Assembly: GCF_032854445.1 (NCBI RefSeq)
Contig: NC_088306.1
Location: 22,973,764-23,037,763, forward strand
Reading direction: 5' to 3'
DNA from: Liolophura sinensis
Taxonomy: Eukaryota; Mollusca; Polyplacophora; Chitonida; Chitonidae
DNA: 64,000 bases
Below the pieces are notes generated by a model. That model did not search any database, was not told the origin of the DNA, and saw only the letters and a program-made list of their open reading frames with translations. This document shows, one piece after another, positions 22,439 to 64,000 of this stretch (position 1 is the stretch's first letter; the number at the start of each line of letters is the position of its first letter). A program made the translations under genes and the position numbers.

Positions 22439-22835
22439 ATAGTTTCTGAGCTGAAAAGGCATTAAAGTGCAATCAGATATGGCGAGTTCTGACGTCAACA
22501 AGTCGGCATGGCATGGACTTGTAAACTGGGCGTATGACGGGGTAGATTACTCGCTGCCGGGAAATGGGGGGGAGGAGTGTGTGAATTTCCTGGACTTGCG
22601 CCAGCGTGTGTGGGAGTCCGCCTTTGCGTCTTGTTTCGCGTTCATCGTGATGATTTGGGGTTACACTAAAGTACAGTTACCTCAAGTGAAGACAGAGAAC
22701 TATGTGGAGCCGATAAGTAAAAGGATATTGCTTGTCCTCATGTGTTTGACATTCGGCACGGAACTGGGCTTTAAGTTTGCCACAAGACAGATGATCTGGA
22801 TCTTGAATCCTTGTCACCTGGTTACTATGCTTCAG
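22439..22835 (+). CDS. TMEM164: TMEM164 first coding exon (with 5' UTR)
   Basis: The exon follows a TTTGCAG acceptor (22436-22438). UTR runs to 22478 and the ATG is at 22479; an upstream in-frame GTG at 22467 is not needed. It encodes residues 1-119: the N-terminal [19 protein letters not shown] motif, two hydrophobic segments (about 49-61 and 83-94) and the family signature GFKFAT...NPCHLVTM. It ends phase 0 at CAG|GTGAGT. The non-coding first exon upstream was not found. Confidence 0.95.
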
Positions 22836-25800
22836 GTGAGTTCAGTGTTCAGCAGTGATGTTGATAGGTTTTCAATGTGGTGAGTCCCCGGTACCCACAG
22901 GTCATTTTAGTAGATCCCAGGGAAAAAGAGTGGGTCCCAATAAATTTTGTGTTTTTGAAATTGTAACTTATCAACATTTTGTAGTATATTACATATTACA
23001 GGTTTGTCAGAAGGTTCAAAGAAAATTTGAACGTCTGATTTCATCCATAAAAATTTGAATAAGATAGTGTATACATGCAATAGTTTTAATTACTATTAGC
23101 TTAAAATTTCATTCAAAATGTTTTATCCTAAATTCCAACTTTTGGAATTGTTTTAAGTCTTAATTTTAGCATGAAAAATAATAAAAATCAAGCAGTATAT
23201 TTGTGTTTGAAAAAGAGACCATCAGAATATTTGTTATTATACATATATGTCAACTTAAAAATGAAAGTAAATCCAAGGGGAACATATGGTGCGTTCCTTT
23301 GATGCGTCAGTCATGATTTTACTGCGTCTTTTCTGATTTTAATGCATCTGAGATGCAGGGTGCGTACCTATCTACATTATTGGTTCAAGTGATGTGTACA
23401 GGTAAAGCAGTAGCCCGTTTTAAGCAGGATGGTCATAAGAAGGAGAGATTTAAATAGGGTGTACATGGTGAAATATGAGCATCATGACAGGGATGCCGAT
23501 CATGAGTCAGAGGTGGAACTAGAAACAGAATTATTGTTTCATCTGGACCCTCCATTTAGCTACATGTATTGTGAATCTGAAGAGATGATCTTCGTTTTTG
23601 GGAGAGCACCCACATCTACCCTAGCTACGGAGAGACATGATTGACAAAGGCAGTGTTTGGATTCTGACCCTGTCATGGTGGATACCTTGGTTATATTTAT
23701 GTTAATTGCAATATTAGGTCTTTATTGTTCCCATATAATGAGATGATATGAATTCTGAATTACTTTAAGATGAGTGTAAACTTGTTTTCATGGAGTACAG
23801 CTTTGACACTCAGTGGTTTATGAAGGTGGCAATTCAAAGCTGTACTTGTGAATGTAAACAAATCAGGGCTGTTTGTGAATGCAACGATTCAGAGCTGTTT
23901 GTGAATGTAACAAATCAGAGCTGTTTGTGAATGTAATGATTCAGGGCTGGTTGTGAATGTAACAATTCAGAGCTGGTTGTGAATGCAACAATTCAGAGCT
24001 GTTTGTGAATGTAACAAATCAGAGCTGTTTGTGAATGTAATGATTCAGGGCTGGTTGTGAATGTAATGATTCAGGGCTGGTTGTGAATGTAACAATTCAG
24101 AGCTGGTTGTGAATGCAATGATTCAGAGCTGTTTGTGAATGTAACAATTCACGCTGGTTGTGAATGTAACAATTCAGAGCTGTTTGTGAATGTAAACAAA
24201 TCAGAGCTGTTAGTGAATGTAACAATTCAGAGCTGGTTGTGAATGCAACGATTCAGAGCTGGTTGTGAATGCAACAATTCAGAGCCATTGTAGCGATTCA
24301 GAATTGTTTGTGAATGTAATGATTCAGAGCTGTTTGAATGTAGTGATTCAGAGTTTTTTTGTGAATGTAATAATTCAGAGCTCTTTGTGAATGTAGCGAT
24401 TCAGAGCTCTTTGTGAATGTAGCGATTCAGAGCTCTTTGTGAATGTAGCGATTCAGAGCTCTTTGTGAAGGTAGTGATTCAGAGCTGTTTTAAATGTAAT
24501 TATTCAGAGCTATTTGCAGAGATTCAGAGTTGTGAATGTAACGATTAAGAGCTGTTTGAATGTAGTGATTCAGAGCTGTTTGTGAATACAGTCAAACCTG
24601 TTCTATGCGGCCAGTGAAGGGACACGTAAAAATTGTCCGCATATGACAGTTGGCCACATAAGACAGGTTGTAAAGACCAAGACAAATAACAACTGAATTA
24701 AGTTTCAGGAAATCCACACATATAGGCCTACATAATTATCATCCAATATATGTATCACATAATAATCTTATACATAATTGTTAAAGCACTAATCTGGTCA
24801 GCTACATAAATTTCATACAAATATAACAATTGTAGTAAAATAATAACTCAATAGTTTCAAGTTTTGTGGGGTAGACCTATGGATTTCACGCATTTAACAG
24901 CTGATTTTCAGGTGAGGGCACGCATGGCAGGAGAACTTTCTTCCCGTCATTGTCAAGCCCTAAAAAGCCATGTGCTAGTTTGGTCTATGTAGGTATAAAA
25001 GACTATTCTAGCAAAGTTTTGTACTGTAAATGGCAGACTGCTGAGATGTTCAATCACATTTGCCATTACTGGTGAAACAACAACAACAACAACATGTACA
25101 AGTGAAGGAAGATCAATTTCTCCATGTGTTCGGTACAGGCAATATTTTGGCCACGCGAAATGAGAACACAGCACCATTTGCCGGCAAAGATAATGGCCAA
25201 GCAAGCCCGATAATTTGTCAAAGAAACCATTCATGGGAGGAACCACAGGAGGTCAGATTATATCCGATTATATCCGAGTCTGCCCGCTGTTTATGGCATT
25301 CATAAACCTCAGGACCTCAGCATCGAGCAAACCCACTGGCACAGTGCAGGGGTGTCTGGACAGTAACCAGCTAGGCCTGATTAAAGAACAATAGAGTTCA
25401 CTGCTATTGACCAATAATTTTCGCACATCACTTCTCGTCACAAAGTGGCAGGTTGTAACTTTCAATCACTACAAAAAATATTGAACTTGCGTCGTCGCCA
25501 TTTTGAAATTTTTGAATGTCCGATGCGGCAATCATCATTACCGTTGAAAGTCTTGGCCGCTCAGGACAGGCTGATATAGAATTTGGTGGCAAAATATATT
25601 GGCCGCTGGACGCGTTGGACAGGTGCCCGCATATTACAGGTCGTTTAACATGGAAAATTGTTTGGTCGCGGCAGAGAGTGGCCGCTTACGGCAGATGAAC
25701 GCTGAATACAGGTGGCCGTAGGTACAGGTTTGACTGTATAACGATTCAGAGCTGTTTGTGAATGTAGCAATTCAGAGTTGCCTGTGAATGTAGCAATTCA

Positions 25801-28800
25801 GAGCTGTTTGTGAATGTAGCAATTCAGAGCTGTTTGTGAATGTAGCAATTCAGAGCTGTTTGTGAATGTAGCAATTCAGAGCTGTCTGTGAATGTAGCAA
25901 TTCAGAACTGTTTGTGAATGTAGAAATTCAGAGCTGTCTGTGAATGTAGCAATTCAGAGCTGTATGTGAATGTAGCAATTCAAAGCTGTTTGTGAATTCA
26001 GCGATTCAGAGCTGTTTGTGATTGTAGCAATTCATAGCTGTCTGTGAATGTAGCAAATCAGAGGTGTCTGTGAATGTAGCAATTCAAAGCTGTTTGTGAA
26101 TTTAACAAATCAGAGCTGTTCATGAATGTAGCGATTCAGAACGTTTGTGAATGTAATGATTCAGAGCTGTTTAACAATGTGGAAGCTGTTAACTGGGGGA
26201 ACATGACTAACCGATGTCAAAGCTAAGTTTGTGTCCATGCATGTATACAGGCATTTACTCAGGCCTGTTGAGATAAAGTCTTTTAAGATGATCTCTGAAT
26301 CTGGCTTGTGAACCATTGACCTATAACTTTCAAGTACTGTAATTCTTCAACCTTCTTGCATGTTTGCAAAGTGTTTATTCAGGCATGTTCTGAAGCCATT
26401 ATCCTGTGTGGACCAATAAAATTTTTGTGAAGCCCTGAAAATGGCCAGTCCAACCATTGTAGTTTTGTCTTCAAAATCTAATTATAAATGTACATAAATC
26501 GCCCTGAAAGGTGCTCTTTCATATTCGAAAAGGTTGAGGAATTAGGGTGTACATACATATATGTATCGTGTAAGAAACGGTACAATAATTACCATACATA
26601 AACCTGCATTGCTGTACCAATAGACAGTTTTGTTTGGTATAGAAACATGTATTTTGTATCATTCTGAGAGAACTACGGGGCTTATAGAAATAATTTGCAC
26701 AGTTTTATGAAGTTTTTTTTGCATCTAAAGTGACACAAGTGAATCTTTTTTGGGTCATTTTCAAAATGATTGTATACGGAAATGCCAGCGAAAAAAAAAG
26801 CTTGAAGGAAAGATTGAAGAATGGTTTACTTCATCATTCACGCACATGCATTGCTGTACCACTGGACAGTTTGGGAACAGACTTAATGGTCCATTTAGGA
26901 TGTGAATGGAATAATACACGCTTACCTAACAAAGAATTTTGCATTTTATCTCTTTGCCATGTTTATACATGTGTGTTATACAGTTTATACACGTTATTTA
27001 CCTGTATTGAATTTATTTTTCAGTGCTCCTTAAAAAGTAAATTTCACAGGTGCATTCATACAAATAAAATAAACTTGATTATGGTGTAAAACACCTGTCA
27101 GGTAAGTAAATAAATGTAAAGTATGTGAAATATTCCTGAGTACGGCTTAAAACACCATTGAAATAAATAAATATGTGTATATAATAATTTATTTATTTAT
27201 TTATTTGATTGGTGTTTTATGCCGTACTCAAGAATATTTCACTTATACGACGACGGCCAGCATTATGGTGGGAGAAAACTAAGCAGAACCCGGGGGAACC
27301 CACAGCCATCCGCAGGTTGCTGGCAGACCTTCTGCATGTAATATTCCCTGTACATGTCTGCAGTTACAATGCAGTGTAAAGCATGATTTCATCTACATCT
27401 ACGTGTGAAGAATGTTCATATAATTATTGAGTAACTGTCAATCTTCAAACTTTTCAATCACTACGGTCCTTTTTTCAGTGGAGTTCAGGCATATAATTGT
27501 TATGAAAAACATGCTATAAATGATAAGGTTATGTCACTAAAGGTACAGTCTCCATAAAACTGTGCAGATTATTTCTCTAAACTGCATAGTTTTCTGAGAA
27601 TACTTCAAAAGTTTGGTTGTTGACGCGAATGGAAAGGGTTGAGGAATTTTCACAAAACTGTCCTTACCTGAAGAACCCTATTTCTTCTAAATTTTGAAAC
27701 GCCTGGTTTGCTCATTTTAGCCACTATATATATTTGTAATTCTATCAGGAATATTGATTTTCTTTTTTCTCAGACGGTTAGACCATCTAATGAACAACAT
27801 ACTCATATTTTTACTTTTCGAAATGGTAAAGAAATATTCAGCAAAAAACGCGTTTATATGACACTAGGTACCACAGTGAATTTACAGCACTTCAACCTTT
27901 GTTACAGATTTTCCGTATGCCACACCTAGGAATTGATTCTCCTCTGTTGTTACAGATCTTCCTATTGGCTACACCAGATAATTGTCTTTCCTCCCTAGTT
28001 ACAGATTTTCCTCCTAACTACACCTGATAACTGTCTCTCTTCCCTTGTTACAGATCTTCCTCCTTTCCACACCTAGAAATTGACTGTCCTCTATTGTTAC
28101 AGATCTTCCTCTTTGCTACACCTGATAATTGTCTTTTCTCCCTGGTTACTTTTTATTTTCCTCCTAACTACACCTGATAACTGTCTCTCTTCCCTTGTTA
28201 CAGATCTTCCTCCTTTCCACACCTAGTAATTGATTCCCCTCTGTTGTTACAGATCTTCCTTCTGGCTACACTTGATAATTGTCTTTCCTCCAAAGTTACA
28301 TATTTTCCTCCTAACTACACCTGATAACTGTCTCTCTTGCCTTGTTACAGATCTTCCTCCTTTCCACACCTAGTAATTGACTGTCCTCTATTGTTACAGA
28401 TCTTCCTCTTTGCTACACCTGATAATTGTCTTTCCTCCCTAGTTACAGATTTTCCTCCTAACTACACCTGATAACTCTCTCTCTTCCCTTGTTACAGATC
28501 TTCCTCCTTTCCACACCTAGTAATTGATTCTCCTCTGTTGTTACAGATCTTCCTCCTGGCTGCTCCTCCCTGCAGGGTGACAACCGTGGTGTTTCGGTTA
28601 CACATGCACATGCTTGCCGGAGCCTCTATTGCCTTATTGTTTCCTGTCATCAACACAAGACTGGTAAGCCAGCACTTACGTGTGTCCGTAATGTCAGGGG
28701 TTGAAATACCATTGTTTTTTTACATGTCCACCTGTAGGCGTGTGTCTCATTCGTCGTGTTTAAATATCATGCTCCTAAATATCATGGGCCCAAAATATTT

Positions 28801-31800
28801 TAGATATTTCTGTGAATAGTGTGCTGATATGCACTTTTGACAGTTAACTTTTGTTTTGACCTTTAAAACTTACCTGTTCACGCCAGGTGGACACTCAGTT
28901 ATTTGGACCCCTGTAATAATGTTAAGTCCTGTTAGATTCATGTTGTATTAATCAAGAAAAATGATATATATTTATTACTGTTTGCATGAAACTGTGTTGA
29001 AATCTAGTAAATCATTGTTTTGTAGAAAGGTGGGGTGGGTGAAGGACGATGTGACTGAGAACATGTGACCGATATGCTTGTCTAGTAATCATTAGAAACC
29101 ACAAGGTATATGTTCAATCCCAGCCTTCCTCAGCTGACTGCAGACACGTATTCTGTGGTTCGTGTACAGGTGTAGGTTATTTCGAAGAGAAATTATGGTG
29201 TATGTATTGTACGCATATACCACAGTCATCTCTGACAAACTGCCGTATTCTGTTCAGCAGGATTTTGTTGCATGTACATGTGAGAATCAGTGATACCAAT
29301 GGTCAAGAGCCTCTCACCAATCAGTGATCAGTGTGAAACAAAGTCCGGATGTGGCTGGCTTCCTCTCTGGCTCTGCATTGGAAGGCTTGCCAGAAACCTG
29401 TTGATGGTCATGGGTTTCCCTCCGGGTTCTGCCTGGTTTCCTCCAACCATAATACTATCCACCATCATCTAGGTGAAATATTGTTGTAAAACACCAATCA
29501 AATAAATAAACAGAATGAATAGGTAATATTGTGGGAGTTAGAAATTTTTTGTTGTGAACGATCAAAATAACCCTACTGTGACTTGTCAGAAGTGTTAAAC
29601 AACCCTTTGTGGACATTAATTTACGCATCACCTGTTACACTGTTTCCCAAAATGACAAATGACACTTTCCTCTGTGACCTTCTTACATATAAGTTCACAA
29701 ATGTTAATATCAGTTTTCTCCATTGTTCATCTAGTCTAAATAAATTTTTGTGGAGCTGATTTCAGGCGCCCGTGTTGTATTAAATTTGTAGTTGCCAAAG
29801 GTTTTTGACAGGTCACATGGTACAGTAGCACTTTGGTACCTTTAACAACACAAGTTCAAACCTAACCCTCCCCCACCTTCCCTATTACCTTCATATTCAT
29901 GTTTTCTGGGTGCATACTGTGCTCCTGGTGATTGTCAAATGTCAAGGTGTAAAGTTTACAAGGTAAAGCTATACGTGTCAACATGCAAAGTACTGTTCAA
30001 GTGATATTGATTTGCCGTAACTTGTCAGGAAAATGGTGTCAGCTACTAACAGCTAGCTGCTTCAACTACCGCAGTTCTCCTAGTTCAGTATAAAAAAATG
30101 CGCTTTCAGAAGCACATGATGGCCTTCAAATGAAGCTTAAGTTTTCCTGATAAGAAATTAATCAAACTTCACAGACAATTCATAAATGGCCTTATAAGGT
30201 GAATGAACCGGTTATAATCAAGTCAAATGTGTCACCTGAACAATACTAAAGTGGGTCACCTGAACAATACTAAAATGTGTCACCTGAACAATACTAAAAT
30301 ATGTCACCTGAACAATACTAAGATGTGTCACCTGAACAATACTAAGATGTGTCATCTGAACAATACTACAATGGGTCACCTGAACAATACTACAATGGGT
30401 CACCTGAACAATACTAAAATGTGTCACCTGAACAATACTAAAATGGGTCACCTGAACAATACTAAAATGTGTCACCTGAACAATACTAAGATGTGTCACC
30501 TGAACAATACTACAATGGGTCACCAGAACAATACTACAATGGGTCACCTGAACAATACTAAAATGTGTCACCAGAACAATACTAAAATGTGTCACCTGAA
30601 CAATACTAAACTTCACGTAAAATACATTGCGTGTCATGTATTTAAATGCTAGTGTTGAGCAGTATCACTTGACCGCTCTCCTCAGATTATTCCAGTTACA
30701 AACGTATTTAAAAATGAATGTACACCTATTTAAGTCAGAGAAATTTATTGCAGAATGTTATGATTGTGACATGTACACATAGAAATGTACAGTACATTTT
30801 GACTTTTTGTATGTAATTTTGATCAACAAAACAACATACATTGTATAAGGTATTTAAATGACAATTACATGCATATACTGTACATGTCATCCAGCATGCA
30901 ATGGAAAGAGGTTAAGTGCACAATATCCTATTGTTTTCAAAAGTTGCCAAGTACACTTAATTCTATTACATAAAAGATGCAATTAGATGTACATGTATCT
31001 GTTGGTTGGTACATACCGTAAATCACCTAAAAATTTTTACCACCAAAAAACATTTCTGGAGGCAAATAAATGTCATGAGATATTACTTTTGGTACTACAA
31101 TTGACATTTTCCTAGCTGGATATCATCCTACCGTCCAAACACCTCTCGAAACACCTTTCTAAAATTGAACGCCTGGGATTTGGATATATGAGCAACTTAG
31201 TGATGGACGAATTTTTATGACATTTAGGGTAGTTTTCGTTCCATAGTTGAGACTGAGGAGACAAATGGCTATTGTAGTTTGATAAAGATAAATGTACATC
31301 AGTTACTGTAAATCTCAACCTTTTCAACCACTCCAAGCACTTTTTATCAGTGGAGGGTTTGTGTACAAATATTACGAAAATGACGATAAAAATGATTTGT
31401 TTTTGTCATTTTAGACGCAAGCTTCGTAAAATTGTGCAAATTATTTAAAAAACAACGGCTCCACTCACTGCATATACGCTGTGATAACTGCAGCAGCCTC
31501 ATACCAAGACCAATAGACACTTTCTTTTTTTACTGCATTTATCACAGTGTATACACAGTGAATGAAGCCATTATTTCTAACACATCACCCGTTCACATAT
31601 GTTTTACACTAATTTTCAGATTTTACTCCCTTTCACTTTTCAAACTGATACCTGTTCACCCCCTTTTGATTATTTCACCCTTTATTTTGATTACCCTTCT
31701 CTTGCGTAGATCACATCTTGGAAGCGTCCATTTTAAAAAAAACTACACGGTCCACGCATCGAAAACCAATGAGAATATCGTACAACGTTGGTTGTTGGAT

Positions 31801-34800: not shown

Positions 34801-37800
34801 GGACTCCCTACATGTAGCTTTTATTAATCAATATTCCCGGAAAGCTTCTCGAGCACGAAGTAGAATCTAGCTGATGCGTTTGACGTATAAATATTCATCA
34901 TTGTCTGTCAAACAATAAATGTGATAAAGTGTTTGAAATTATTGATAGTTGAACTGCCCACAGTGAGGAATGTATGGTTCGATACTCACACAACACTATT
35001 AACTGAATGTGTACATCACATTGAATGGAACCTCTGCTTTGCTTTTTACGGACTACTTTCAGTGGTACTGTAACAGGCAACTTCAGAAACAGTTAATATG
35101 TGTACTGTTTGCAAGACCTGGGATGTTCTACTAACTTCAACCTAATGTATTTTTACGGTTATGGTACATGGAAAGCATTTACGTCCAGGGAAAGATCTGA
35201 ACACATCTGGATGTCCAGCAGTAAGGGATTTTTGAGTTCGATCACATTTAGCGTCGAAGGTAGAAAAAGTCCAGCTGTATCATGTGATCTGAAAAAAGTA
35301 TTAGGCAACTATTTTTGATCACATTCACTATAACATGGGTGTCTGAAAAAGTGTCATAAAAATTAATATAAAGTCGGGGAATGATAGAGAAGATGGAGAA
35401 TGTGAATGCCTGTCATTTATGCCTCTGGAAAAAGGTGAGACAGGTGATCAGTAAATTAATGTCAGCAAAGGTTGCCTAACATTTTTCACCATTCACATGA
35501 CACATGAGGTCTGTCTGCCTTTGGTGACTAAAGAGTTCTAACTCAAAACTCCCCTATTAGATACATGAAGAACTTATGAAAAACTGGAAATGTGGATTTG
35601 TGTTCACTAGCCAGTTAACAGCAGCACTGCAGCCGACGTCAGGAGATGTGTCAGGTACATGTATCAGGCGAGGTGCAAGACTTTCCTACTGGTGAAATCA
35701 ACTCACACCCCCCCCCCTCTCCCCCATCCACCTACATTTGCCCCCTCCCCCCGACCCTTTTTCTATTTATTTCACTGTTTTATGCTGTACATATTTCACT
35801 TATGCCTGTATGACAGTGAACAGCATTATGGTGGGGAAGCCAGCCAATATCCAAAAAGTTGCTGGCAGAAGCCAGCATGAGCTGGCCTTGAACTCAGAGA
35901 CCGCATTGGTCACAGGCTCCTGGGTCATTATGTCACGCTGGCACGCTAACCATCTCGACCACATCACCCCGGAGTCTCGGCTGATTTGAGACTTAATAGC
36001 TGTTTCAGCTACCGTTTGACATGATTCAGGTGTGTGTATTACGTGCAGCTTTATCTAATTGTCACATTCTTGTATATTTGATGACGGTATGACTAGTACG
36101 ATCATTTTGCTTTGTTTCCACTATCACATTCTTGTGTATTTGATGACTGTATGACTAGTACGATCATTTTGCTTTGTTTCGACTATCACATTCTCATGTT
36201 ATTTGATGACTAGTATGACTAGTATGATCGTTTTGTTTTGTTTCTGCTATCACATTCTCATGTTATTTGATGACGGTATGACTAGTATGATCGTTTCGTT
36301 TTGTTTCTGCTATCACATTCTCATGTTATTTGATGACGGTATGACTAGTATGATCGTTTCGTTTTGTTTCTGCTATCACATTCTCGTGTTATTTGATGAC
36401 GGTATGACTAGTATGATCGTTTTGTTTTATTTCAGCTATCACATACTCGTTTTGTTTCTGCTATCACATTCTCATGTTATTTGATGACGGTATGACTAGT
36501 ATGATCGTTTTGTTTTGTTTCTGCTATCACATTCTCATGTTATTTGATGACGGTATGACTAGTATGATTGTTTTGTTTTGTTTCAGCTATCACATTCTCG
36601 TGTTATTTGATGACAGTATGACTAGTATGATCGTTTTGTTTTGTTTCTGCTATCACATTCTTGTGTATTTGATGACTGTATGACTAGTATGATCGTTTTG
36701 TTTTGTTTCTGCTATCACATTCTCATGTTATTTGATGACGGTATGACTAGTGTGATTGTTTTGTTTTGTTTCAGCTGTCACATTCTCATGTTATTTGATG
36801 ACGGTATGACTAGTATGATCGTTTTGTTTTGTTTCAGCTATCACATTCTCATGTTATTTGATAACGGTATGACTAGTATGATCGTTTCGTTTTGTTTCTG
36901 CTATCACATTCTCGTGTTATTTGATGACGGTATGACTAGTATGATCGTTTCGTTTTGTTTCAGTTATCACATTCTCATGTTATTTGATGACGGTATGACT
37001 AGTATGATCGTTTTGTTTTGTTTCTGCTATCACATTCTCATGTTATTTGATGACGGTATGACTAGTATGATCGTTTTGTTTTGTTTCAGCTATCACATTC
37101 TGGTGTTATTTGATAACGGTTTGACTAGTATGATCGTTTTGTTTTGTTTCTGCTATCACATTCTCATGTTATTTGATAACGGTTTGACTAGTATGATCGT
37201 TTTGTTTTGTTTCAGCTATCAAATTCTGGTGTTATTTGATAACTGTTTGACTAGTATGATGGTTTTGTTTTGTTTCAGCTATCACATTCTCGTGTTATTT
37301 GATGACAGTATGACTAGTATGATCGTTTTGTTTTGTTTCAGCTATCAAATTCTGGTGTTATTTGATAACGGTTTGACTAGTATGATGGTTTTGTTTTGTT
37401 TCAGCTACCATTTGAGACCTGTGTATATTATGTGCAGCATGTTCTAATCGTCACAGTTCCTTGTTATTTGATGAGCTTGGGAGGTAAGCTTAATCAATGA
37501 TATTGATCAGTGGTACAAGAAGTTAACCTTTCAAAACGCGGCCTCATCTTGTCAGTCTGGCGAGGCTCACTGAGGTGTGACAGAGGCATGGACAGCTGTC
37601 ACTTATCGACCAGCGGTAATCCCCTACTCCCCACAGAGAGTGTACGACTTAAGACAACAGCCCTCACTAGGCATTTTCTGAAAATGCCTCTTAAATTATT
37701 GAGAAGGTTGCGGTAACGTCCGAGATAAATTTAATTATCTCAGAAAGATGTCATGATAGCGTTTTCACCTGTTTGGATGCTGCTGAATCATAGTGATGTA

Positions 37801-40119
37801 ACTCTCTTAAAATGGAGGTAGAAAAATATTACTGATGGTACAGGTACATATTGTTGTTTAATTATAGGCCACCTTTTTGGGAAAATTTTTGAATATGGCC
37901 TGCGATGTATTAACTTTGTGTAAGCAATATGATTAATATGATTAATTTCTACAGTTGATAATAAAGTCAGTTGAATGATTTACAATATATTATAGCTATG
38001 ATTCCTTTGTACAAGCAGTCCCTGATGAGCAAGAATTATAGTCTCTGTTATAATGTGAGATTATCCGTTTTGGTGTGTTTAGGCGCCTACACCCCAGAGA
38101 GACTTGGTGACTTCAGCTGGTCAGGGGTATCCCTGGGCATCCTCTTCCTCTACCACTTTCTACCCCTGCAGTGGCTGGCTGTGGTGAGTACATGTGGTCC
38201 TCTCATCTTTTTAATCGTATCCAATGCAATAAATAACAACTCAGGAATACTGTATATAAGTCATGTAAGTCAAAATTCCTGTGTGGAAGCAGATAAAGGC
38301 CTTAGAATGATGCTTTGATGCCAACACTAAAGTTTTTCTGATAACAAATTAAACAAACTTCACAAACTAAACAGACTTCTAATGTGGCCATGTAAGATGG
38401 ATGATCAATAAAAATATGTCGCATGAAAAGTGCTAAACGGTAGGTGAAATATAGTAGTCCAGTCTCGAAACCGAACTGTTATTAAACTTAAAATTGAAAG
38501 TTAGGAATAGTCATAGTCAGGAATTCAGGTTGTCCACAGACTTGCATACGTTTGAATTGTGATGTATGAGTAGTCATAGTGTGAAATTTCGACTGAAGTG
38601 AACAAAAGATACAGTACGTAACCAAAATAAAGAGTGGAATTGTTGTGCAGTTGAACTGTTCTAGTGTTAGGAAATGAGCTTCAGATACATGTAGTAATTC
38701 GGTCAGCTTAATCCTTGAAAAACAACTTTGCTGATTTAAAGAGGTGACTGTTGAAGTTTACAGTTACATTGAAAGTCCCTCGAAAGGTAGATGCGCACCT
38801 CAGTATTTCATTGTTTTTTTTTTACCCGAATGATAAGCACTCTCAATTCACCTTGGCAATTGCGGATTGCCATGGTGAATGCTGAAGTGTGATAGCTTAG
38901 CAAAAAAAAAAAAAAAGTGCTGAGTGTGTCATTTCTTATCTTAATCCTAGTTCATTTTAACTAATCTTTATCCACAAAATATTTGAGTCTTGAGTGTTGT
39001 TGAATAAAATATTACTTAAAATGTGTATAAAATGTGGTTTTAGGCATCTAAATTTATTGATATTTAGGCTTCAATGCCTACTCGCACTTTCACGGTATAG
39101 GACAGGGTTTACCTGCGATGGTCTAAAAATAGAACAATACTCAGTAGTGAGAATGGTGTCATGTGGCGCCAGTTCCGGGCAAAGCAACATCACATGGTGC
39201 TCAGAATTAGAATTTTGAGATGCAGTGGTGAAGAAAAAAGCTGTTAATGGATTGGGGGATCCGGAAGGATACATAATTGTACCGTAGTGACTCCAAACCA
39301 ATATTGGAGCGAAGATGCCGTTATACAGGTGTTTGTATTTATCTTAAATAGTATTACCAAGGCAAGCTTATTTTGGCCGAGGAAGTATTTTTTTTTTTTT
39401 TGGGCTGAAGCAAACTTGTGATTTGAGAGGACTGTGATATTATTTTTCCAAAATTATTTCCTGCTTTTAAGGTGTCAGCCTATTTGAAATGGTATGGTAC
39501 ATGTACATGGTACATCCTACAGGAAGGTTCTACGTTTTCATCTAGAAAACAGATAAACCAAAATGCTGTTCTCTCCACAGCTGAGCCATCCCTGACCAAT
39601 GAGGCAACTTTTTGGTCGTTAGACTGTATTGTCAAGTCTGAAAGTTTGATCGGTACATGGCAAACTCCGAATACCACAGTAATTTCCTCCGTCCCTGAAC
39701 CTGACTGCCTTGATAAAAGTCAAAAATTCTGGAGTACACCAAATAAAATATCTATATGAATAGAATTGTTTCCACTAATTGCTCTGTTTCTTTTCATTTT
39801 TTTTTTTTGTTAGGTGAGCCATGTAAACCTCAACAACATGCTATGCCCGGCTATCTCTGACCCGTTTTACGGCCGATTTTATCGCGTCTGCGCTATGACT
39901 CATCAGAGCATTCTGATTCCAACCCATGGGAAACTCTACACTTGGGTTGCCAGTCTCTTCTTGTCTAAACATTCCATGGAAGCCACAGAGGAGAGGTCTC
40001 AAAAGGGGAGTAACTCTGACACCACCTCACACACAATAACAAAGGAGATCAGCAATGGAGGAGATGCAAAGTACACCAAAGACAGCAAACTATGTAACGG
40101 GCACACAAAACTAGAATAA
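22479..40119 (+). CDS. TMEM164: TMEM164, transmembrane acyltransferase, complete coding region
   Basis: The CDS joins 22479-22835, 28547-28663, 37405-37483, 38083-38183 and 39814-40119. All junctions are GT-AG, phases fit, and the product is 319 residues (human about 297). TMEM164 is a multi-pass membrane protein reported as an acyltransferase that makes ether phospholipids and promotes ferroptosis. The NPCHLVTM motif (Cys112 here) corresponds to the Cys reported as catalytic. Later signatures are [54 protein letters not shown] and THGKL. The last 60 or so residues form a Ser/Thr/Lys-rich hydrophilic tail peculiar to this species or lineage. Introns of 5.7 and 8.7 kb carry arrays made from the exon 3 and exon 4 boundaries. 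PANK4 converges from the right. Confidence 0.95.
23826..24588 (+). repeat. 29-bp minisatellite, left half (TMEM164 intron)
   Basis: About 25 units of GTGAATGTAACAATTCAGAG plus CTGTTT or CTGGTT, with drift to GTAGCGATTCAGAG towards the right. It is split from its continuation at 25737 by a transposon. Confidence 0.92.
24589..25736. mobile_element. Pogo/Tigger-like non-autonomous DNA transposon inserted in the minisatellite
   Basis: The 1148-bp element has perfect 13-bp terminal inverted repeats CAGTCAAACCTGT / ACAGGTTTGACTG and is flanked by TA on both sides (24587-24588 and 25737-25738). TA targets and CAGT-type ends fit the pogo/Tigger branch of Tc1-mariner elements. Subterminal TGGCCGC / GCGGCCA-type motifs recur at both ends. 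No intact transposase is seen; the largest frames (24953-25246 minus, 25060-25305 plus) are under 100 residues. Confidence 0.85.
25737..26175 (+). repeat. 29-bp minisatellite, right half
   Basis: The same repeat resumes as TAACGATTCAGAGCTG directly after the transposon, with about 15 units of mostly GTGAATGTAGCAATTCAGAG. Units here are more alike than in the left half. Confidence 0.92.
27120..27338 (-). repeat. SINE-A fragments, tail to tail
   Basis: 27120-27170 is a short plus-oriented 3' end (TGTGAAATATTCCTGAG to AATAAATAAATA). 27186-27338 is a reverse copy from a (TTTA)n tail to CGCAGGTTGCTGGCAGACC. Confidence 0.85.
27896..28546 (+). repeat. 49-bp array of TMEM164 exon 3 splice-acceptor copies
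   Basis: GTTACAG motifs start at 27901, 27949, 27998, 28047, 28096, 28145 (decayed to GTTACTT), 28197, 28246, 28295, 28344, 28393, 28442, 28491 and 28540. The last is the genuine acceptor of exon 3. Units are 49 bp, apart from one 48-bp and one 52-bp step. Each copies the pyrimidine tract, TTACAG and then ATCTTCCTCC or ATTTTCCTCC, the first bases of exon 3. Units come in a repeating order of three types (147 bp), and the real exon occupies the register of the TTGGCTACACC type. Confidence 0.93.
28547..28663 (+). CDS. TMEM164: TMEM164 coding exon 3
   Basis: The 117-nt exon is phase 0 at both ends (TTACAG|ATC ... CTG|GTAAGC). It encodes residues 120-158: [30 protein letters not shown] and TRL. 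These hydrophobic segments are strongly conserved in the family. Its acceptor is the last of fourteen tandem copies. Confidence 0.96.
29299..29515 (+). repeat. SINE-A copy lacking A-box end
   Basis: It runs from AGCCTCTCACCAATC through GGTTTCCCTCCGGG to AAACACCAATCAAATAAATA. It is old. Confidence 0.8.
29580..29900 (+). repeat. Interspersed repeat R2, copy 1
   Basis: Shared with 46795-47075 and, in part, 35440-35560: GTTnnnnAACC...TTGTGGACATTAATTTA and later GACAGGTCACATGGTACAGT, then ACAAGTTCAAACCT. Family identity is unknown. Confidence 0.5.
30224..30612 (+). repeat. 24-bp minisatellite in TMEM164 intron
   Basis: About 16 copies of AATGTGTCACCTGAACAATACTAA, with GGGTCACC and CTACAATG variants. 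Because 24 is divisible by three, both strands show open frames of about 140 codons (HLNNTKMC and SIVQVTHF repeats), which I consider artefacts. The preceding 110 bp recur at 38325-38440, where the sequence ATATGTCGCATGAAAAGTGC occupies the place of the first unit. Confidence 0.92.
30998..31340 (+). repeat. Interspersed repeat R1, copy 1
   Basis: Shares GGAGGCAAATAAATGTCATG, AGATATTACTTTTGG and ATGAGCAACTTAGTGATGGA with 33890-34090 and 55505-55740. It is about 200-300 bp, with no recognised family. Confidence 0.6.
31846..31854 (+). promoter_or_regulatory. ETS-like site upstream of 54-codon ORF
   Basis: CCGGAAGTG matches the core ETS/GABP site. It lies 46 bp before the ATG at 31901, a spacing typical of TATA-less promoters. 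It is inside a TMEM164 intron. Confidence 0.4.
31901..32065 (+). CDS. Unrecognised intact 54-residue ORF with coding character
   Basis: The frame runs ATG 31901 to TAG 32063-32065. The product starts [20 protein letters not shown] and ends [10 protein letters not shown]. Composition is balanced, codons are mixed and GC-richer than the AT-rich surroundings, and the helical [15 protein letters not shown] stretch looks like real protein. A donor-like CAG|GTAACA lies seven bases after the stop. I do not recognise the family. It could be a microprotein gene with its own ETS-driven start inside the TMEM164 intron, a first exon of an alternative transcript, or a retrocopy fragment. SINE-B debris follows directly. 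Confidence 0.45.
   Translation: MNGIALRKKLRQTAEVNALAKLSTDSRLAQLLCAVTDNMKSGMKACKLGHYRHL
32080..32205 (+). repeat. SINE-B fragment
   Basis: GGGTCACACCTAAGACTTTAA, then GTTTGGCGTTCAACAT and GGATAGTGCAATGGCTGG match the SINE-B body. Confidence 0.7.
33890..34090 (+). repeat. Interspersed repeat R1, copy 2
   Basis: GGAGGCAAATGAATGTCATG, AGATATTACTTCTGG and AAATGAGCAACTTAGTCATG match copy 1. A SINE-A fragment (GTCTGCCAGCAACTTG, 33829-33890) abuts its left side. Confidence 0.6.
34373..34492 (+). repeat. tRNA-like SINE (SINE-B head type)
   Basis: An A-box-like GGCCTAATAGTTAGAGCG and B-box-like GGGATCAAAACC are separated by about 30 bp. The tail, ATGTAAAACCCAAAGCATGC, resembles the SINE-B 3' end. 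This looks like a short internally deleted SINE, not a functional tRNA gene. Confidence 0.6.
35763..35968 (-). repeat. SINE-A, reverse, degraded
   Basis: TATTTATTTCACTGTTTTATG, GCATTATGGTGGGGAAG and, in the reversed head, GAGCTGGCCTTGAACTCAG and GCACGCTAACCATC. A C-rich low-complexity stretch (35709-35757) lies just before it. Confidence 0.75.
36009..36086 (+). pseudogene. Diverged duplicate of TMEM164 exon 4
   Basis: After CTGTTTCAG it reads CTACCGTTTGA and, after an indel, TGTGTGTATTACGTGCAGC, CTAATTGTCACATTCTTG and TATTTGATGACG|GTATGA. The real exon 4 has CTACCATTTGA, TGTGTATATTATGTGCAGC, CTAATCGTCACAG and TATTTGATGAGC in the same order. The copy is 78 nt against 79 nt and carries a net 6-nt insertion upstream of an otherwise 1-nt-shorter remainder. 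It is open in phase 0 ([18 protein letters not shown]...). Splicing it in, in addition to exon 4, would keep frame; replacing exon 4 would not. Confidence 0.75.
36087..37404 (+). repeat. 63-bp array derived from TMEM164 exon 4 boundary
   Basis: About 21 units, each carrying a pyrimidine-rich TTTTGTTTTGTTTCAG (or TTTCTG) followed by CTATCACATTCTCATG, TTATTTGATGACG and GTATGACTAGTATGATCG. The TCACA..TTC..GTTATTTGATGA block matches the second half of exon 4, and TTTCAGCTA matches its acceptor. The array lies between the diverged exon copy and the true exon. Sixty-three is divisible by three, so a repetitive frame ([20 protein letters not shown]) stays open for 268 codons. That frame is not the exon 4 frame. 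Confidence 0.93.
37405..37483 (+). CDS. TMEM164: TMEM164 coding exon 4
   Basis: TTTCAG|CTA CCA starts residue 159, and the exon ends in the first base of a Gly codon at GGAG|GTAAGC. It encodes [20 protein letters not shown] and YLMSLG. The family has LPFE..YY.QHV at this place, and the phase fits exon 5, so this is the functional copy. Confidence 0.93.
38083..38183 (+). CDS. TMEM164: TMEM164 coding exon 5
   Basis: TTTAG|GC completes Gly, followed by [18 protein letters not shown] and a hydrophobic helix [15 protein letters not shown], ending phase 0 at GTG|GTGAGT. The GGAYTPE motif is a family hallmark. Confidence 0.96.
39814..40119 (+). CDS. TMEM164: TMEM164 coding exon 6 (terminal)
   Basis: Starting after TGTTAG, it encodes [20 protein letters not shown], then [13 protein letters not shown] and a hydrophilic Ser/Thr/Lys-rich tail ending in KLE and TAA. 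The conserved part stops soon after THGKL; the tail of about 60 residues has no recognised domain. Confidence 0.96.
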
Positions 40120-53739: not shown

Positions 53740-54315
53740 TAAACAATATAGTTCATTCACACATCTGTGTAATCAATAACACTTACAGTTCATTCATACA
53801 TCTGTGTACTCAATAACACTTACAGTTCATTCACACATCTGTGTAATCAATAACACTTACAGTTCATTCATACATCTGTCTAAACAATAACACTTACAGT
53901 TCATTCATACATCTGTGTAATCAATAACACTTACAGTTCATTCATACATCTGTCTAAACAATAACACTTACAGTTCATTCATACATCTGCCTGATCAGTC
54001 ACTCACAGTTGACCCAGACATCTGTGTGATCTGTCACTTATAGTTGACCCAGACATCTGTGTGATCAGTCACTCACAGTTCATTCAGACATCTGTGTGAT
54101 CAGTCACTCACAGTTCATTCAGACATCTGTGTGATCAGTCACTTACAGTTCATTCAGACATATGTGTGATCAGTCACTTACAGTTCATTATATTCAGACA
54201 TTTCTATGATCTTTCACTCACAGTCAACCCAGACATCTGTGTGATCAGTCACTCAAAGCTGACTCAGACTGTGATCAGTCACTCACAGCTGACTCAGACT
54301 GTGATCAGTTAGACT
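53740..54315. repeat. Tandem array of about 37-bp units, 3' of PANK4
   Basis: About 15 units change gradually from CACTTACAGTTCATTCATAC plus ATCTGTGTAATCAATAA to CACTCACAGTTCATTCAGAC plus ATCTGTGTGATCAGT. In PANK4 sense each unit has ACTGTAAGTG or ACTGTGAGTG, a 5'-splice-site-like string. It starts about 770 bp after the PANK4 stop. Confidence 0.88.
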
Positions 54316-61300: not shown

Positions 61301-63687
61301 TCCAGCAGACTCCTCACGGTCAGGGTTCCGTACGCACTGACAAACAGACAACAGATTAATTCATTTCTCTGTCCAACATTTTACTTTTAAAAGCTACACA
61401 AGAGTATTAATTAAGTGAATTTGGTCATATCACAACATGCCAATCTCAGTGTTCACATACTTTGCTTTGTCTTTGTTTATTTCATAAATTTTATTGGCAT
61501 TTAACATCATACTCAAGAACATTTCTCTTACAACTGACAGTCCCACATCTCGTGTTATGGGTCATCAACAGGTGCGTGTTCTTATAAAACCTCCAGACTT
61601 CAAGGTACACCTCAGTGGCCAAGGGCCTGAACAAGCAATGTAATTCAATGGGTCTAAGGTGTGTAATACTTTAACATGCCTGTACTGTGATGAAACAGAT
61701 AAAACCGAGTTTTGTGAGGGTTCACAGTAACACAGTCAAAGAACCTACCATGAAGGTGAGAAGGTTTAATACTGACACTGCTTAGAAATGTACCTACCCC
61801 TTTGTTTCTGAGAAGGTTTAATACTGACACTGTTTAGAAATGTACCTTCCCCTAGTTTTCTGAGAAGATTTAATACTGACACTGCTTAGAAATGTACCTT
61901 CCCCTAGTTTTCTGAGGGCTAAATACTGACACTGTTTAGAAATGTACCTACCCCGAGTTTCTGAGAAGATTTAATACTGACACTGCTTAGAAATGTACCT
62001 TCCCCTAGTTTTCTGAGGGCTAAATACTGACACTGTTTAGAAATGTACCTACCCCTAGTTTCTGAGAAGGTTTAATACTGACACTGCTTAGAAATGTACC
62101 TTCCCCTAGTTTTCTGAGGGCTAAATACTGACACTGTTTAGAAATGTACCTACCCCGAGTTTCTGAGAAGATTTAATACTGACACTGCTTAGAAATGTAC
62201 CTTCCCCTAGTTTTCTGAGGGCTAAATACTGACACTGTTTAGAAATGTACCTACCCCTAGTTTCTGAGAAGGTTTAATACTGACACTGCTTAGAAATGTA
62301 CCTTCCCCTAGTTTTCTGAGGGCTAAATACTGACACTGTTTAGAAATGTACCTACCCCGAGTTTCTGAGAAGATTTAATACTGACACTGCTTAGAAATGT
62401 ACCTTCCCCTAGTTTTCTGAGGGCTAAATACTGACACTGTTTAGAAATGTACCTACCCCGAGTTTCTGAGAAGATTTAATACTGACACTGCTTAGAAATG
62501 TACCTTCGCCTAGTTTTCTGAGGGCTAAATACTGACACTGTTTAGAAATGTACCTACCCCGAGTTTCTGAGAAGGTTTAATACTGACACTGCTTAGAAAT
62601 GTACCTACCCCTTTGTTTCTGAGAAGGTTTAATACTGACACTGTTTAGAAATGTACCTTCCCTTAGTTTTCTGAGAAGGTTTAATACTGACACTGCTTAG
62701 AAATGTACCCTCCCCTAGTTTTCTGAGAAGGTTTAATACTGACACTGTTTAGAAATGTACCTTCCCCTAGTTTTCTGAAGGCTTAATGCTGAAACTGTTT
62801 AGAAATGTACCTACCCCCAGTTTCTGAGAAGGTTTAATACTGACACTGTTTAGAAATGTACCTACCCCTTTGTTTCTGAGACGGTTTAATACTGACACTG
62901 TATAGAAATGTACCTTCCCCTAGTTTTCTGAGAGGGATTAATACTGACACTGTTTAGAAATGTACTAACCCCCAGTTTCTGGGTTTAATACTGACACTGC
63001 TTAGAACTGTACCTTCCAATAGTTTTCTGCGAGAGCTAAATACTGACACTGTTTAGAAATGTACCTACCCCAAGTTTCTGAGAAGGTTTAATCCCCACAC
63101 TGTTTAGAAATGTACCTACCCCGAGTTTCTGAGAAGATATAATACTGACACCGCTTAGAAATGTACCTACCCTGAGTTTCTGAGAAGATATAATACTGAC
63201 ACCGCTTAGAAAATGTACCTACCCCAGTTTCTGAGAGGGATTAATACTGACACTGTTTAGAAATGTACTAACCCCCAGTTTCTGAGAAGATTTAATACTG
63301 ACACTGCTTAGAAATGTACCTTCCAATAGTTTTCTGCCAGGGCTAAATACTGACACTGTTTAGAAATGTACCTACCCCTAGTTTTCTGAGAAGGTTTAAT
63401 ACTGACACTGCTTAGAAATGTACCTTCCCTTAGTTTTCTGAGAAGGTTTAATACTGACACTGCCTAGAAACGTACCTTACCCTAGTTTTCTGAGAGGTCT
63501 TAATACTGACACTGTGAAGAAACCTGCCACAGGTTTTGCTAGAGAGTTTTTTATGACAATGTGTAGAAACCTACCATGGGTTTTGTTTCAGATCTTGAAG
63601 CCGAGACAGATATTTCTCTTTGAACTTTGAAGCCCGCTGTTCCACATCATCAGAGTTTGGCTGACTACTTACAGCTTGACAACGGGT
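55084..63687 (-). CDS. PANK4: PANK4 C-terminal half: 4'-phosphopantetheine phosphatase (DUF89) domain
   Basis: Minus-strand exons, in transcript order, are 63575-63687, 61249-61336, 59242-59449, 56818-56975, 56200-56369 and 55084-55318. Phases agree across all joins and give 323 residues plus the stop. PANK4 of other animals is about 770 residues: a catalytically dead pantothenate-kinase domain followed by a metal-dependent DUF89 phosphatase that dephosphorylates 4'-phosphopantetheine and limits CoA synthesis. Only the second part is here. The metal-site Asp-Asn (CDNSG, plus 56881-56889) and the later Asp of LNDVT (plus 56331-56333) are present, as are [24 protein letters not shown] and GMGRAVHTN. 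The N-terminal half lies beyond 64 kb. A splice-site-derived array fills the 63575-61336 intron. Confidence 0.95.
55505..55740. repeat. Interspersed repeat R1, copy 3
   Basis: AGAGGCAAATAAACATCATG, AAGTATTACTTTTGATG and AAATGAGTAACTTAGTCAT match the other two copies. A short direct duplication, ATAGACTAAATTCTAGG, lies at its end. It is within a PANK4 intron. Confidence 0.55.
56200..56369 (-). CDS. PANK4: PANK4 exon with ANS/LNDVT catalytic segment
   Basis: AATCAG|GTG ... CTCAG|GTACAG. It encodes [35 protein letters not shown] and the segment to GSPCLDL plus two bases of Arg. The Asp of LNDVT is a DUF89 metal ligand by family knowledge. Confidence 0.95.
56399..56546 (-). repeat. SINE-A fragment in PANK4 intron, reverse
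   Basis: (TTTA)n tail, GATTAGTGTTTTACGCCG and AACCCACGACCATCCGCAGG. AGAATGGAATAGA occurs on both sides (56387-56399 and 56545-56557), a clear target-site duplication of this 5'-truncated copy. Confidence 0.9.
56818..56975 (-). CDS. PANK4: PANK4 exon with metal-binding DNSG motif
   Basis: AACAG|GG ... CAG|GTAAGT. It encodes [35 protein letters not shown] and [15 protein letters not shown]. The Asp-Asn of DNSG coordinates the catalytic metal in DUF89 phosphatases. Confidence 0.96.
56976..58731. other. PANK4 intron, no exon recognised
   Basis: No coding exon is missing between 56975 and 59242, because the flanking phases and protein sequence are continuous. The frame at 57589-57969 has an exon-like look on neither strand and matches no family I know. 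Confidence 0.6.
58732..58955 (+). repeat. SINE-A copy in PANK4 intron
   Basis: AGCTCGATGACCCAGGAGCC to CACCAATCAAATAAATA, with a tRNA-like head partly deleted at the B box. Confidence 0.85.
59043..59186 (-). repeat. SINE-A fragment in PANK4 intron, reverse
   Basis: CAGTTTTATGCCGAACTC, GCGGCCAGCATTATGGTGGG and CATCCACAGGTTGCTGG. It ends about 55 bp from the PANK4 exon donor at 59240-59241. Its near neighbour at 58732 is in the opposite orientation, so the transcript can fold here. Confidence 0.85.
59242..59449 (-). CDS. PANK4: PANK4 exon with AGNVFDWG motif
   Basis: TTTCAG|CAA ... CAAG|GTAATT. It encodes [19 protein letters not shown], then [20 protein letters not shown] and [11 protein letters not shown] plus one base of Gly. 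The [13 protein letters not shown] motif is invariant in PANK4 DUF89 domains. Confidence 0.96.
60232..60499 (-). mobile_element. Full-length SINE-A in PANK4 intron, reverse, with 10-bp target-site duplication
   Basis: The reversed copy ends in CAACTGAGCCACGGACGCCC, the complement of the A-box head; the reversed B box is GGACTTGAAC. Direct repeats CAAACCTCAA occur at 60222-60231 and 60500-60509. Confidence 0.9.
60640..60735. repeat. Inverted-repeat element
   Basis: TTGCACAAAGG at the left and CTTGCACAAAG at the right are direct copies, and GATTGTAAACCTAAGC faces GCTTACAATCGAAACC in inverse. This looks like a small degraded fold-back unit. Boundaries are approximate. Confidence 0.4.
61249..61336 (-). 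CDS. PANK4: PANK4 exon [13 protein letters not shown]
   Basis: GTCAG|T completes Cys, then [20 protein letters not shown] and FNFTDPYLQ, ending phase 0 at CAG|GTGGGG. It matches the linker and start of the DUF89 region in PANK4. Confidence 0.94.
61752..63535 (-). repeat. Array derived from the PANK4 exon 5' splice-site region
   Basis: About 35 units of 49-54 bp: TACTGACACTGTTTAGAAAT, GTACCTACCCCGAG, TTTCTGAGAAGGTTTAA. In PANK4 sense each reads CTCAGAAACTCGGG|GTAGGT or AG|GTACAT. The bases next to the real donor at 63573-63574 read ATGACAATGTGTAGAAAC, CTACCATGGGTTTTG, so they align with a unit. From 61921 to about 62600 two unit types (52 and 49 bp) alternate with an exact 101-bp period. Confidence 0.9.
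63575..63687 (-). CDS. PANK4: PANK4 exon at window edge (first visible)
   Basis: TCTGCAG|ACC ... CCATG|GTAGGT. It encodes 37 codons: [19 protein letters not shown], then [18 protein letters not shown], plus two bases of Cys. The KYLSRLxxLxxxPCAYG stretch across the next junction fits PANK4. An internal GTAAGT at plus 63668-63673 is a decoy donor. Confidence 0.88.
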
Positions 63688-63807: not shown

Positions 63808-64000
63808 GTGAATTTACCCTTTCTATAAACCTCTGAGAAGCACTACAGTCAGTATTCCCTGACATCTAGGCTATGTGAGTTTACTCTCTCTATACTCTCT
63901 GAGAAGCGCTACAGTCAATATTCCCTGACATCTAGGCTATGTGAGTTTACCCTCTCTATACTCTCTGAGAAGCACTGCAGTCAGTATTCCCTGATATCTA
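63808..64000. repeat. 66-bp tandem repeat running off the right edge
   Basis: Units start at 63808, 63875 and 63941: GTGAGTTTACTCTCTCTATA, CTCTCTGAGAAGCGCTACAG, TCAATATTCCCTGACATC. At least 2.9 units, continuing beyond the window. Confidence 0.9.

Follow-up and report, generated by a model that had tools for sequence, protein, structure and literature searches.

Coding exon 3 of the TMEM164 gene of the chiton Liolophura sinensis begins at the edge of a 21-unit minisatellite whose unit joins the second half of that exon to an acceptor tract, and a diverged, nearly full-length duplicate of the exon stands at the other end of the array. We consider it likely, with a probability of roughly 0.8, that a duplication of the exon and its splice junction was amplified as a neutral minisatellite of the “mirage” type, that the array is spliced out, and that the working site has remained fixed where the array ends. 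In its form the structure agrees with the mirage minisatellites, an established class of repeat, which is found here in a mollusc together with a near-full exon copy and with siblings nearby. The window, by which we mean the whole stretch of 64,000 nucleotides that was analysed (C12:22973764-23037763), lies on contig C12 of a 609-Mb assembly, and this assembly was searched for all of the genome matches reported below.

Joining five plus-strand exons of the window yields a coding sequence for 319 amino acids that is identical to the NCBI TMEM164-like protein of Liolophura sinensis, and a Pfam scan matched PF14808 in this protein. The gene is apparently single-copy, as all five genome matches recovered with the protein fall at its own locus. 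The exon at 37405-37483, which the sequence-only reading had numbered exon 4, is the third coding exon, and it becomes the fourth only if a 5′UTR exon, implied by an acceptor just before 22439, is included. The coding exons, as given by the joined coding sequence that equals the NCBI model, and the two features derived from exon 3 are the following:

22479-22835, plus strand: TMEM164 coding exon 1
28547-28663, plus strand: TMEM164 coding exon 2
36009-36086, plus strand: diverged copy of coding exon 3, 78 nt (alignment to 37405-37483)
36087-37404, plus strand: 21 tandem units, each of about 63 bp and made up of CTA, the second half of the exon, a GT donor-like site and a 34-bp stretch that closes with the acceptor tract (Tandem Repeats Finder and manual unit split)
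37405-37483, plus strand: working coding exon 3 (79 nt), whose acceptor lies at the array end and whose donor is GTAAGC
38083-38183, plus strand: TMEM164 coding exon 4
39814-40119, plus strand: TMEM164 coding exon 5

That the segment at 36009-36086 is a diverged, near-full duplicate of exon 3 had been proposed from the letters alone, and the proposal withstood comparison with shuffled sequence. Smith-Waterman alignment to the working exon scored 61, with 47 of 56 aligned columns identical across the 3′ two thirds, far above the scores of 2,000 dinucleotide shuffles (mean 15.4, s.d. 2.6, maximum 30). The first 11 nt of the two exons are alike as well (CTACCGTTTGA and CTACCATTTGA); they fall outside the local alignment because an insertion of about 7 nt separates them. 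The copy is flanked by CAG on its 5′ side and by GTATGA on its 3′ side. Copy and working exon have in common a TGT codon for Cys, at a position occupied in seven other animal proteins, as judged by eye, by Glu (six) or Gly (one); because both exons carry TGT, the duplication is probably younger than the change to Cys.

A sceptic might hold that the resemblance to the exon is due to chance, or that a dispersed satellite or a transposon-borne repeat happens to lie beside it, and the window is indeed rich in minisatellites, ten arrays making up 10.2% of its bases. We judge this explanation highly improbable in view of the alignment score, and also because the copy reads CVYYVQ..LIVT as the working exon does, in a homologous frame shifted by the insertion already mentioned and by small deletions. 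Moreover, all nine genome matches to the 63-bp unit lie inside its own array, in a search that skips very common words, so that the check for a dispersed satellite left the duplication standing. Within the window, the best match to the unit elsewhere scores 27, and an Rfam scan of the window gave no match. A dispersed satellite or transposon-borne repeat, the unit of which would occur at several genomic places, was accordingly rejected as a candidate, both for this array and for the 52-bp donor-derived unit of a neighbouring gene described below, for which 17 of 17 genome matches are in place.

The array itself corresponds closely to its first description. Tandem Repeats Finder returns a period of 63 bp and copy numbers of 6.2 + 15.2, and a manual split gives 21 units, one of them a 25-bp remnant, which agrees with the earlier estimate of about 21. 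The core of the unit does come from the second half of the exon: 29 nt are exon-derived, namely CTA plus that second half, and the 34-bp non-exonic piece starts with GTATGA and ends with TTTTGTTTTGTTTCAG. The arithmetic of the unit is that of the exon copy (78) plus the 34-bp intron piece less about 49 nt of the 5′ part of the exon, or 63 bp. Variants of the exon copy (TTCTTGT and TAGTACGATCA) are also found in the array units adjoining it, and at the opposite end the array stops at 37404 and the exon starts at 37405, placing the working junction at the array edge; this junction matches its tandem copy with a score of 47.

The suggestion that an exon duplication was followed by repeat slippage fits this anatomy, in which the exon copy is distal, the working exon proximal and the truncated unit between them. 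Although we infer the order of events and their neutrality, a plausible course can be outlined. The TMEM164 exon and its acceptor would have been tandemly duplicated in the chiton lineage, with the copies about 34 bp apart; one copy would then have lost about 49 nt of the 5′ exon part, creating a 63-bp unit with an acceptor, half an exon and a donor-like GT; slippage or unequal exchange could have raised this unit to 21 copies; and selection would have retained only the outermost exon, leaving the other copies as intronic decoys. Since selection keeps one working boundary, the remaining array would fall on the intron side. The junction duplications may themselves originate in the way that minisatellites do.

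Beyond what the sequence-only reading had noticed, the same architecture occurs at TMEM164 exon 2, at three junctions of a PANK4-like gene and at five kinase exons. The PANK4-like gene is the minus-strand neighbour of TMEM164; a Pfam scan found in it a PF01937 ARMT1-like domain, and an NCBIfam scan of the PANK4-like piece matched no family. The relevant features of the window are these:

27899-28546 (27899-28561 in Tandem Repeats Finder), plus strand: second acceptor-derived array of TMEM164, 49-bp units with a 147-bp higher order (Tandem Repeats Finder and junction copy)
63575-63687, minus strand: PANK4-like exon (open frame across four joined exons; Pfam)
61757-63522, minus strand: donor-derived array of 52-bp units downstream of the PANK4-like exon 63687-63575 (Tandem Repeats Finder)
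63808-64000, minus strand: near section of a donor-derived array with 66-bp units, whose source is the end of the PANK4-like exon L116:1064-909; the array continues beyond the window (L116:172-947)

The unit of the exon 2 array reads TTGTTACAG followed by ATCTTCCTCC, that is, the acceptor and the start of coding exon 2, and a tandem copy of the junction at exon 2 scores 60. Each 52-bp unit downstream of the PANK4-like exon 63687-63575 contains copies of the exon end and the donor region; this donor junction has a copy scoring 37, and in a separate comparison it scored 34, when the best of 1,000 shuffles reached 27. The 66-bp unit combines about 39 nt of the end of another PANK4-like exon with about 27 nt of intron. 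Just outside the window, in locus L116 (C12:23037400-23041400, minus strand), positions 909-1978 hold two further junction-derived arrays of the PANK4-like gene. One of them, a 102-bp acceptor array, is accompanied by another diverged exon copy, the second described here, and both lie upstream of a further PANK4-like exon; this exon copy scores 63 against a shuffle maximum of 25 (1,000 shuffles), and the array scores 37 against the junction.

Several other arrays of the window deserve mention. An array of 35-37-bp units at 53750-54309, about 0.8 kb past the last recognised PANK4-like exon, has minus-strand units with perfect donor-like GTAAGT or GTGAGT strings, and a parent exon for it was not found. 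Intron 1 of TMEM164 holds two arrays with a nearly identical 26-bp unit (ATTCAGAGCTGTTTGTGAATGTAACG), at 23816-24587 and 25744-26172 and more than 1 kb apart, in which no exon match was recognised. In intron 2, a 24-bp array at 30225-30610 has one open frame on each strand (144 and 148 amino acids from stop to stop).

Next to the working splice sites, the arrays place decoys that are locally almost indistinguishable from them. For exon 3, the acceptor dinucleotide is AG in 9 of the 21 units, TG in ten and composed of other letters in two, and at 37279 an AG decoy agrees with the working acceptor in 34/34 intronic bases. The decoy at 28253 upstream of exon 2 equals the true acceptor at 44/45 intronic and 16/20 exonic bases. 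Because these intronic stretches are equal at 34/34 and 44/45 positions, local sequence cannot separate decoys from working acceptors, and splice choice most likely follows exon definition rather than local acceptor sequence. Exon definition is the simplest rule that separates locally identical acceptors, one for which pseudo-exons of 29 nt are short. The decoys would be bypassed as the acceptor is paired with the true donor across the full-length exon. Slips to the decoys would yield frameshifts or stops: all nine AG decoys, taken as exon 3 starts, run into a stop; 12 of 12 TTACAG sites upstream of exon 2, 11 of them inside the array, lead to stops; and 48 of 48 extensions from GGTA[CG] sites of the 52-bp PANK4-like donor array meet one.

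A different view would have the exon copy or the decoys in use, the copy as a 78-nt cassette adding 26 amino acids in frame, or the decoys as a poison switch that diverts transcripts into frameshifted, degraded forms, with array length tuning TMEM164 output. The copy does possess an acceptor and a donor, and it has no stop in phase 0; being 78 nt long and open in that phase, it would preserve the frame as an extra cassette. The decoys also have some of the required signals. Every unit with AG had been described as a miniature pseudo-exon of 29 nt that has both splice signals, a description that holds for eight of the nine AG units, in which a GT follows at a distance of 29 nt (GTATGA in five, GTTTGA in three), and fails for the ninth. 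Additionally, none of the 63 columns varies as much as the one that holds the A of the acceptor AG (nine T and eight A among the 17 full-length units compared), as if disarming were favoured. However, the homologous frame of the copy is broken, the genome protein search did not recover the copy, AG is missing in 12 of the 21 units, and the sole protein-database entry for TMEM164 of Liolophura sinensis is the form without exon copy and array. The available text on amphioxus mirages, for its part, reports that they leave splicing undisturbed (PMC3087553). Taken together, these points make use of the copy or of the decoys, in either form, improbable, and they are consistent with a neutral, spliced-out array. 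We also observe that AG units gather near the working exon (four of the last five units vs none of the first five) and that GTTTGA replaces the donor-like GTATGA in four of the last five units. The variability of AG and the clustering of AG units near the working exon might mean that the decoys are felt by selection.

Junction-derived arrays recur in this genome beyond the window. For a survey of exon loci, we used 85 of 138 kinase matches, comprising the 30 best (L013-L042) and 55 mostly short ones (L043-L097) that carried 800-bp flanks and were chosen by match length before their sequences were inspected, together with 18 of 19 ABC-transporter matches, the excluded one having 11 stops; the 11 matches of a PF00083 search, ten on contig C7, were left out. 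Exon edges were approximated by the edges of the HMM matches, the overlapping loci L075/L094 and L081/L096 were counted separately and have no array in any of them, and an array starting 12 nt past a donor (L110:972-1309) was excluded from the count. The 55 kinase loci contain 20 arrays, five of which cross an exon edge in such a way that the unit includes the splice site, at acceptors in L046 and L047 and at donors in L053, L057 and L086. In the survey as a whole, 5 of 103 exon loci have a junction array.

Whether arrays prefer junctions is a separate question, and a preference is only suggested. Under a reading that is compatible with the amplified exon duplication proposed here, chiton exon-intron junctions, donors and acceptors alike, would be recurrent and preferred birthplaces of minisatellites through a junction-linked process (e.g. 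transcription-coupled or RNA-mediated), leaving a few percent of junctions with near-perfect decoys and sometimes an extra exon copy. By a founder-unit test, the 5 of 20 arrays in the 55 kinase loci exceed the 0.80 expected by random placement (P = 0.0008), and within the window three of the ten arrays lie across one of its 20 junctions when 0.11 would be expected (P = 1e-4), a count made in a window that was chosen for its array and before the fourth junction array, at 63808-64000, was recognised. Arrays at donors as well as at acceptors also speak for such a process. Yet the 30 further kinase loci, mostly long exons, have none of their 18 arrays at an exon edge, and the 18 ABC loci have none of 14 at a junction vs 0.75 expected; with the 55 kinase and the ABC loci combined, the test gives 5 of 34 arrays vs 1.54 expected (P = 0.016), and 5 of 146 junctions are hit (3.4%) vs a collapsed array coverage of 1.2%. 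Point coverage reveals no excess, with 3 of 20 junctions having a near tandem copy scoring at least 36 vs 14% of 1,500 random 40-mers. We prefer the founder-unit test to point coverage because a junction is a single ancestral point, whereas point coverage counts a grown array many times over. On balance, we regard the birthplace reading as tentative and its truth as doubtful. If it is true, a duplication process linked to junctions is common to mollusc and lancelet; this process would keep providing material from which new exons and introns can form, and would give a natural setting in which to test how exon definition finds the true site.

Irrespective of where arrays arise, the decoy arrays are natural experiments on splice-site choice: the local signal cannot decide among identical acceptors, so the choice should depend on where a site lies with respect to the remainder of the exon. 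Furthermore, a single gene here displays several stages, exon duplication, decay and amplification, that constitute the proposed raw material of intron and exon gain.

Among known systems, the interferon-induced gene 6-16 (IFI6) has a minisatellite that supplies multiple splice donors, which are used. Its repeat unit, like the chiton unit, carries a splice donor, but the unit sequences differ and the donor-like sites of the chiton are only putative. Tandem exon duplication can also give rise to mutually exclusive exons, and the chiton pair resembles these in having two homologous exons in a row that were close at origin. We rejected a mutually exclusive pair as a candidate, however, as the two exons share neither length class nor frame (78 vs 79 nt, the homologous frame of the copy being shifted by the insertion), and an array of truncated copies lies between them.

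The closest counterparts are the mirage minisatellites of amphioxus, reportedly first described in NAR in 2002. The available texts place them in Adh3, the globins BflGb6 and BflGb9 and troponin C, with similar repeats in PGBD5, and take RT-PCR and Adh3 data to show regular splicing (PMC3087553, PMC3902484). These cited sources, as far as their available text goes, describe amphioxus; our survey suggests that junction arrays are not rare in a mollusc. A literature search, mainly of titles and abstract openings and covering few subscription journals, found no report of mollusc mirages, which is weak evidence of absence. Human segmental-duplication genes are described as having internal tandem repeats at exon-intron boundaries that are able to alter splicing and make introns (PMC2812944). 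The minisatellites are at exon-intron boundaries in both cases; the human repeats, in the available account, are largely exonic and vary between recent paralogs (PMC2812944), whereas those of the chiton are intronic decoys in a single-copy gene. Exon duplications with intronic minisatellites in earthworm metallothionein (PMC12783039) and minisatellites near alternative splicing in C. elegans (PMC4039745) were set aside, since the portions available do not present them as junction-derived arrays.

The TMEM164 array has tandem units, a boundary-spanning unit with a splice signal, and the authentic junction at the array edge. According to the available text, amphioxus mirages likewise have tandem units across the exon-intron boundary on its 5′ or 3′ side, AG or GT in many of the units, though not in every one, and a true junction that borders the array (PMC3087553). 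The chiton array nevertheless departs from them, as they are described in these texts, in being found in a mollusc, in its 21 units as compared with the 3-6 of BflGb6, in the near-full exon copy at its far end, and in a unit that holds both an acceptor and a donor-like site, a feature approached by the PGBD5 repeats of amphioxus, which likewise overlap both kinds of splice site (PMC3902484).
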